A stretch of DNA of 64,000 bases from Spiroplasma endosymbiont of Crioceris asparagi (GTDB lineage Bacteria > Bacillota_I > Bacilli_A > Mycoplasmatales > Mycoplasmataceae): the NCBI RefSeq assembly GCF_964020035.1, contig NZ_OZ026475.1, forward strand, positions 620,001-684,000, written 5' to 3'. The translations under genes and the position numbers were made by a program. Positions 26,526 to 28,292 of this stretch are shown here, piece by piece. The notes beneath the pieces were generated by a model, which was not told the origin of the DNA, did no database searches, and saw only the letters and a program-made list of their open reading frames with translations. The stretch's first letter is position 1. Each line of letters opens with the position of its first letter.

Positions 26526-26565
26526 TTTAATTACCTCATATGATTATTGTAATTTAAAAAAAGAT

Positions 26566-26594
26566 AATAAAAAAAAATAGTCGAAACTATTTTT
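26566..26594 (-). terminator. Terminator of the purine permease gene
   Basis: On the minus strand AAAATAGT-TTCG-ACTATTTT with a stable UUCG-type loop followed by seven or more T residues, 6 bp after the permease stop codon. Confidence 0.88.
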
Positions 26595-26599
26595 ATTTA

Positions 26600-28108
26600 T
26601 TATTGAATTGTTGAAAGTCCGATAAAGTAAAGCAAGAAGATTAAACATAAAAGATACATAAATTTATTAATCTCTTTTATTTTTCCGGTAACGATCATTA
26701 TAAATACATAAATCATAATTGACATGGCTACACCATTGGCAATATTATATGTTGCTAGCATGAATATTATTGAAAATAATGCTGAAATTCCAAACTCTGG
26801 TTTTTTTCACTCAATAGAATCAATTTCGCTTATCATCATCATTCCCACAAATATACATGCAGCACTAGTTACACATTGTGGGATTGCTTGAAATATTGGA
26901 CCAACCACCACTGCTAATAAGAATAATAATCCTGTTATTAAAGAAGCAAATCCACTTCTTGCGCCTTGTTGAACACCTGTGTTTGATTCAATAAATGCTC
27001 CCATTGGTGAAGTACATAATGCTGAACCAATAACTGTTGCTGCTGAATCTACAACTAAAGCTTTTTGAGGTATTGTCAATTCTGTGTTTTTAGTTTTATT
27101 TACTTGCACTGTTACAGCTGTTAATGTTCCAGTCGCATCAAAAAAGTTTAAGAAAAAGATAATAAAGATTGAAACATACATTGTTGGTGATTTTCATATT
27201 TTTGAATTACCAAATTCTGAAAACGTATTTTTCATGTTATCTTTAAAACCAACAAACATATCAGAATAGTGCTTGAATGAATCTTTGATATTATCAAATT
27301 TTGAATTAAATAATGCTGAAGTATTTTGGTTAATTATGTTTGAATCTTTTGAAACAACATTTGCGACAATAATAGAAATTATAAATCCAATTATGATTGC
27401 AATGATAACTGCACCTGAAACTTTTTTGTAATTTAAAAATATCATAATTCCTAAAGTTAACATTCCAATTAAGATCATTGGATAATTAGTTTTTAGTCTT
27501 GATAAATCTGAATTAGGTAAACCACCATTCATTTTAAATCAACCCATGTCTGCAAAACCAATATATGCAATAAATAATCCGATTGAAACACCCATTATTA
27601 TTATTAATGATTTTGGTAAAGCTTGAATAATATAATATCTCAGAGGCGTTATAGAAAATATTAAAAATACAAAAGATGAAATCATAACAGCTATAAGTGC
27701 ACCCTCATAACCTAATCATTCATTATGCTCGCTTACTGAATTAGCAAGAGTATATGTGAAAAACACATTTAACCCCATGCTTGTTGATACAGCAACTGGG
27801 ACGTTTGCAAATAATCCCATAATCATAGTTGCTAAGAAAGTAGAAAGTGTTGTTGCTAAGAAAACTCCTTTTAAACTTATTGTTGTTGCTCCAATATTCA
27901 TGGGAGCAATTTTTGAGTTGATTGATGCAGCACTACCTAATAATGCTGGGTTAACAGTTAAGATGTAAACCATTGCTAAGAATGTTGATACTCCACCAAT
28001 AATTTCTTTCTTAAAAGTGGTTTGTAATTTATCAAATTGAAAATATTTTTCAATTTTCATAACAGCTTTGAATTTGCTAAATCTAAAATTTATTGGATCA
28101 TGATCCAT
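26600..28108 (-). CDS. Purine base permease (AzgA/PbuG/PbuO family)
   Basis: Predicted proton-coupled importer of adenine, guanine or hypoxanthine. The 502-aa product has about 12-13 helices. Family hallmarks are EIIGGVSTFLAMVYILTVNP, ANVPVAVSTSMGLNVFFTYT (AzgA proteins have LPxxxxPGMGLNAFFAYT) and the ESNTGVQQGARSGFASLITG segment equivalent to ESxxGVxxGGRTGLTA. It belongs to COG2252 rather than to the uracil/xanthine branch. It has the GGAGGACAC ribosome site and a ~190-nt leader containing a purine riboswitch with an adenine-type specificity base, so adenine is a likely ligand. Single-gene unit with its own terminator. Confidence 0.9.
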
Positions 28109-28129
28109 GTGTCCTCCTATATTTTGTTA

Positions 28130-28181
28130 ATTATAAAATAAAAAGTGTAACTAAAGACGTACAAAAAACTTCTCTAGTTAC
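28130..28181 (-). terminator. Riboswitch-controlled terminator of the purine permease leader
   Basis: Minus-strand arms GUAACUA (28175-28181) and UAGUUAC (28147-28153), with possible inner AGA/UCU pairs, precede an ACUUUUUAUUUU run. The upstream part of the GUAACUA arm can instead pair, as UAGU-AACU, with AGUU-ACUA, which begins in the 3' strand of aptamer stem P1. That makes terminator and antiterminator mutually exclusive. Confidence 0.7.
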
Positions 28182-28198
28182 TACTTAAAAAATAGTAA

Positions 28199-28260
28199 AC
28201 TTATAATCTAACATTGGTGTTAGGTAGAGACTCCTTCCCGATATGAAGGATTATATAAGT
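28199..28260 (-). promoter_or_regulatory. Purine riboswitch, U74 (adenine-type)
   Basis: A three-way-junction purine aptamer in the leader of the purine permease. P1 ACUUAUA/UAUAAGU; J1/2 UAAU; P2 CCUUC/GAAGG with loop AUAUCGG; J2/3 AGUCUCUA; P3 CUAAC/GUUAG with loop ACCAAU; J3/1 A-U-U. The GG of L2 and CC of L3 needed for the kissing loops are kept. The specificity position (nucleotide 74 in xpt numbering; 28206 here) is U, as in adenine-sensing RNAs, rather than C. J2/3 has C at position 48. The 3' strand of P1 also feeds the antiterminator, so ligand binding should favour termination (OFF). Ligand assignment is inference. Confidence 0.9.
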
Positions 28261-28292
28261 CTTTATATATTTAGTTACATTCCTATTTTATA

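Follow-up and report, generated by a model that had tools for sequence, protein, structure and literature searches.

The azgA locus

The window, by which we mean the whole 64,000-nucleotide stretch of DNA analysed here, comes from a small bacterium without a cell wall and carries on its minus strand a purine riboswitch followed by a gene for an AzgA-family purine permease (Table 1). The gene, azgA, starts 76 nt downstream of the aptamer. Upstream of it, on the same strand, lies tuf. The tuf gene has a hairpin to itself and azgA is followed by one that resembles a terminator, so that azgA appears to be a single-gene (monocistronic) unit. Beyond that second hairpin is a gene for the S component of an ECF transporter, folate family (26525-25863, minus strand; TIGR04518, barely above the cut-off). 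A generic scan for sigma-70 promoters and terminators found nothing, and the terminator was located by folding instead. In Mesoplasma florum, transcription starts 6-7 nt past the -10 box (PMC7745072), and by analogy with this spacing the azgA transcript would be expected to begin near 28278-28281.

Table 1. Features of the azgA transcription unit (window coordinates)
Feature	Position	Strand	Basis or remark
Probable -10 box TATAAAAT of the azgA transcript	28285-28292	-	Inferred from sequence
Purine riboswitch aptamer (RF00167)	28184-28278	-	55.9 bits; helices covary in relatives
P1 5' strand AGACUUAUA	28254-28262	-	Pairs with 28205-28197; 9-bp P1 from folding
P2, 6 bp, with L2 AUAUCGG (28244-28238)	28232-28250	-	Rfam match and relatives
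J2/3 GUCUCUAC	28224-28231	-	Alignment to RF00167
P3, 6 bp, with 4-nt L3 CCAA (28217-28214)	28208-28223	-	Rfam match and relatives
J3/1: A73 and specificity base U74 (28206)	28206-28207	-	Invariant in 14 distinct relatives
P1 3' strand UAUAAGUUU	28197-28205	-	9-bp P1 from folding
Antiterminator strand P UAUAUAAAGACUU, overlapping the P1 5' strand	28257-28269	-	Minimum-energy intermediate fold; conserved in U74 loci
Antiterminator strand T AAGUUUUUUGUA, terminator loop and 5' arm	28160-28171	-	Folding
Intrinsic terminator hairpin and U tract	28143-28186	-	-15.3 kcal/mol by folding; core stem 28181-28171 with 28157-28147
Ribosome-binding site AGGAGG	28113-28118	-	Sequence
AzgA-family purine permease, 502 aa	26600-28108	-	Intact ORF, code 4 (TGA = Trp); PF00860
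Terminator-like hairpin (AAUAGUUUCGACUAUU, then a U run) just past azgA	26541-26605, approximate	-	Sequence

The aptamer

A preliminary description of this DNA placed a near-canonical purine riboswitch at 28199-28260. The Rfam covariance model RF00167 matches here with a score well over its gathering score of 37 (E 7e-7), and this score and the three helices make the RNA a member of that family. The interval first given is the aptamer with a 7-bp P1, and its strand is now corrected to minus. The specificity base is U, as described (U74 = t28206), and U22, U47 and U51 are kept. In the alignment to RF00167, J2/3 reads U47, C48 (c28229), U49, C50, U51 (28226), A52 and C53.

'Near-canonical' is apt for the ligand core, and not for the loops. 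L2 has the typical 7 nt, and L3 has 4; a length of 7 nt for both is typical of RF00167 rather than strictly defining, since Rfam includes short-loop RNAs in the family. In xpt, add and pbuE, L3 is 7 nt long. Two G-C loop contacts (GG of L2 with CC of L3) are still possible in the window aptamer; two are all that the 4-nt L3 makes in the structure of the M. florum 2'-deoxyguanosine (2'-dG-I) riboswitch (PMC8872408). To judge from its bases, the window RNA joins an adenine pocket to the short loops seen in the mollicute lineage.

Distribution and conservation

In the genome to which the window belongs (701,400 bp), RF00167 is represented twice. The second copy, at 377704-377798, has C74 and precedes another AzgA paralog. 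Across 60 genomes of the family, 20 of the RNAs read have U74, and these are spread over five genera. Carriers include Mesoplasma lactucae, M. photuris, M. seiffertii, M. grammopterae, an organism deposited as 'Acholeplasma multilocale', and, from the window's own genus, Spiroplasma sp. TIUS-1. Fourteen of the 20 loci precede a gene for an AzgA-like permease and six precede the gene for PurA (all six above the curated HMM cut-off); no other gene occurs. Among the 14 distinct U74 sequences, 99.3% of base pairs are maintained; double-sided changes number 24, where shuffles average 7.0, and shifting the pairing partners abolishes this covariation signal. When a model built from the U74 RNAs was run on 320 genomes of the order, its own members scored 86-96 bits, a member with CC in J3/1 (L035) scored 89, and the next match 75 or less; in these genomes no equally strong match lay outside the family.

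Elsewhere in the Bacilli, purine riboswitches linked to AzgA had C74 in 39 of 39 cases sampled, and U74 was found in 3 of 87 sampled riboswitches, none of them ahead of AzgA; this survey took the highest-scoring matches only, so that its proportions are no census. Since all 39 are C74, U74 ahead of azgA looks lineage-specific. The arrangement had been called uncommon, which is fair for Bacilli at large; within the family it is normal, with 14 U74-azgA loci, one of them in M. florum. Two U74 riboswitches of other Bacilli (L178 and L192) precede an apparent FAD-dependent oxidoreductase, judged by its N-terminal motif only.

The M. florum locus (L026) resembles that of the window in its U74 core, 4-nt L3, terminator and AzgA gene, and differs from it in the sequences of P1 and the terminator. 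The same M. florum genome contains the published 2'-dG switch (100% identity over 177 nt). In three genomes the azgA and purA aptamers are near identical, closer to one another than to their orthologs across species (L009 and L033, L024 and L034, L013 and L032), as if copied or homogenised.

One of the 14 U74-azgA loci, L042 (G012:C1:532818-532912), has decayed: its L3 is CAAA, P2 has a mismatch, and the azgA gene behind it is broken. Switch and gene, as far as these letters tell, decay together. This locus, and the window genome's own purA, which has no aptamer upstream and has lost it or never had it, are what might lead one to see in the window RNA a vestigial element, functionless in its host. 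The window's helices, core bases, terminator, ribosome-binding site and ORF are all intact, and we find that reading scarcely credible.

The ligand

Adenine recognition, which the preliminary description proposed from the specificity base, is well supported by two kinds of evidence. The adenine-class core (U74 with U22, U47 and U51) is present in the window RNA and invariant in the 14 distinct relatives, and the downstream genes, AzgA-like permease and PurA, form what appears to be a consistent 'adenine' set. C48, to which attention had been drawn, is present but not special: it occurs in 20 of 20 U74 relatives and in many C74 relatives, and we reject it as a change of specificity.

The ligand might be guanine, hypoxanthine or a nucleoside in place of adenine if the short loops altered the pocket. 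The 2'-dG-I RNAs have the same short loops, the window itself holds one such RNA, and guanine aptamers given short loops lose more than 50-fold in affinity (PMC8872408). The core argues otherwise: 2'-dG-I RNAs have C at 22, 51 and 74 (PMC8872408), the window RNA has U at each, and Rfam assigns it to RF00167 and not to RF01510. The association with PurA, too, fits adenine. Short loops appear compatible with adenine as a ligand, for Kim, Roth and Breaker reportedly described in 2007 short-loop M. florum aptamers of which some selectively bind adenine or guanine. We regard a ligand other than adenine as quite improbable.

The true 2'-dG-I riboswitch of the window lies at 63172-63110 on the minus strand (RF01510, 60.6 bits). 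The genes behind it encode a Bmp/PnrA-like lipoprotein (62978-61629) and an ABC ATPase (61660-60104), which makes nucleoside uptake, and not ribonucleotide reductase, its probable target.

Terminator, antiterminator and direction of control

By folding, all 20 U74 loci have an intrinsic terminator, beginning 8-37 nt after the start of the P1 3' strand. The preliminary description had the switch wired OFF, through an antiterminator that takes up the P1 3' strand (AAGU). The direction agrees with our results; the choice of strand was probably wrong. Two antiterminators, in which either the 3' strand of P1 (A) or its 5' strand (P) pairs with the terminator 5' arm and loop (T), were compared with dinucleotide shuffles. 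Over the 20 U74 loci, P:T had a mean z of -2.5, with 12 at or below the 5% level, and pairing of the A strand had a mean z of +0.4, with none above the shuffles. A previous comparison, in which T was shorter and L035 was counted, gave 14 of 21 for the 5' strand and 0 of 21 for the 3' strand. The controls behaved as expected: P was the scoring strand for the M. florum 2'-dG switch (z -3.9), and A for B. subtilis xpt (z -2.0).

In the window alone, P:T is matched by 25% of shuffles, and so is not beyond chance, because the loop is U-rich (a U run). The case for P:T therefore rests on the M. lactucae ortholog L009, which keeps the AAGUUUUUU loop, and on conservation in the family.

In an xpt-like adenine OFF switch, UAGUAACU in the 5' arm of the terminator would instead pair with the P1 3' strand (AAGU...ACUA). 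The window sequence permits the pairing AGUU(U)ACUA/UAGUAACU, and the antiterminator state in silico includes a 9-bp hairpin, UUACUAUUU/AAGUAGUAA. This hairpin, the best near the P1 3' strand, begins just after AAGU, however, and would compete only weakly with P1; the matching hairpin of L009 does not overlap the P1 3' strand. Pairing of the window's A strand with T comes to -3.2 kcal/mol, which 73% of shuffles equal or better. Use of the 3' strand does have precedent in the family, among the loci L003-L071: relatives with the canonical L3 of 7-8 nt favor it in 10 of 10 cases. Those with a short L3 favor the 5' strand in 35 of 43, with one tie (L056, whose L3 is ambiguous, was counted as short by hand). 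The Fisher value for this association, 1e-6, is overstated, since the loci are related. The window RNA has the short loop, and we think the xpt-like arrangement unlikely. As a warning for annotation, the antiterminator strand cannot be read from one sequence.

Folding of the growing window RNA gives P1 as the minimum up to +33; from +36 to +54 the P:T pairing is better by 2.9-3.3 kcal/mol, and from +57 the minimum is P1 plus the terminator. Since the P:T phase lies between two P1 phases, a ligand that locks P1 in mid-phase would cause termination, the behavior of an OFF switch. For the Mesoplasma loci the calculated energies of P:T and P1 are much the same; these loci are near-identical, and are not independent. 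The M. florum 2'-dG switch has just this kind of P-A-T-H logic, established by NMR and SHAPE, and its antiterminator pairs nt 9-23 with 107-123 (PMC5838219, PMC12268651). Nascent-chain folding and this analogy support OFF logic for the window switch.

The best-known adenine riboswitches are ON switches (said of pbuE; PMC12268651), and in a pbuE-like switch adenine would prevent termination. Unlike pbuE, the window has a terminator stem that does not overlap the P1 3' strand, and the joint minimum of the full leader contains P1 and the terminator together. The pbuE terminator, for its part, takes up aptamer strands. An ON switch on an importer would, moreover, be self-amplifying. We consider ON control highly improbable.

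The permease

The downstream gene was correctly recognized as encoding an AzgA-family permease. By sequence, its only matches of solved structure are the plant AzgA-type transporters AZG1 and AZG2, and its homology to characterised AzgA (COG2252-like) members is full-length. A protein scan of genome contigs found no relative. In an alignment with AdeP, AdeQ, GhxP and GhxQ of E. coli, the residues that separate the permease clades do not track the split between AdeP/AdeQ and GhxP/GhxQ, nor that between adenine and guanine carriers.

A tree of 49 mollicute permeases places 13 of 13 intact U74-linked proteins in one clade (support 99/97), and most C74-linked permeases fall outside it. The clade also holds L002 (C74), L035 (CC) and L057 (C74), so that the substrate cannot be strictly deduced from the kind of aptamer, and three further permeases for which no aptamer was found. 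Some Mesoplasma genomes encode one permease of the U74 clade and one of the C74 kind. Adenine transport would fit the U74-clade proteins, and AzgA transporters can have a broad substrate range. Because Apt is encoded in the window genome, imported adenine could be converted to AMP.

Two members of the clade deserve separate mention. L002 (G000:C1:377704-379305), in the window genome, comprises the sister of the window's permease and a C74 aptamer without a terminator; a 13-bp pairing of the 5' strand, and the arrangement GUUUUC...SD...AUGGAAAAC, suggest translational control. In L035 (G059:C1:513666-513760) the azgA aptamer has CC in place of AU in J3/1, and L015, the aptamer of purA in that genome, retains U74; read at face value, this is a natural change of the specificity base.

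Comparison with known systems

The window RNA shares its three-way junction and U74 pocket with the RF00167 adenine riboswitches pbuE (B. subtilis) and add (V. vulnificus). Those two have a 7-nt L3 and the full set of kissing-loop contacts, and act as ON switches for efflux or deaminase genes, whereas riboswitches of the window kind would be OFF switches of an importer or purA, and have a short L3. The M. florum 2'-dG-I riboswitch (RF01510) has in common with it the 4-nt L3 and, as predicted for the window RNA, the P-A-T-H logic and the use of the P1 5' strand in the antiterminator (PMC5838219, PMC12268651, PMC8872408), and differs in the pocket. Guanine OFF riboswitches on AzgA genes (C. difficile CD2107 and CD2704, and the sampled Bacilli) are alike in gene family and probably in wiring (PMC11477304), but have C74 and mostly a 7-nt L3.

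Mechanism, evolution and significance

We think it probable that the window carries a co-transcriptional, adenine-sensing OFF riboswitch, with a P:T antiterminator, that controls an AzgA-family purine importer. The aptamer, U74, the terminator, the family-wide P:T complementarity and the energy cycle in silico are direct observations; the adenine ligand, the permease substrate and the direction of control in vivo we infer. When adenine is low, strand T, on leaving the polymerase, would capture strand P, and the P:T helix would act as antiterminator, allowing the permease to be made. With adenine in the pocket and paired to U74, P1 would be locked and P held out of T's reach; the terminator would then form, and import would stop.

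We give about even odds to the following account of how this arose. A Mesoplasma/Entomoplasma-like adenine OFF regulon (azgA and purA) would have come about by a change from C74 to U74 in a short-L3 lineage whose antiterminator had by then exchanged the 3' strand of P1 for the 5' strand. Position 74 would have flipped again in near relatives (L002, L057 and L035), with the permease clade unchanged.

In the literature searched, there was no adenine riboswitch associated with adenylosuccinate synthetase or found in Mollicutes, and no paper on adenine OFF wiring of import and purA. This wiring is the less familiar part; the U74-azgA unit itself is already carried by M. florum. With it, adenine riboswitches would serve not only to turn on efflux and deamination but also to exert feedback on adenine import and on the synthesis of AMP, the first step of which is catalyzed by PurA, whose gene carries a second U74 copy in several relatives. 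The U74 and C74 versions on sister permeases, within a genome and across species, would form a natural set in which to follow the re-assignment of a regulon by a single base. As laboratory organisms with small genomes, M. florum and its relatives lend themselves to direct tests of these predictions.
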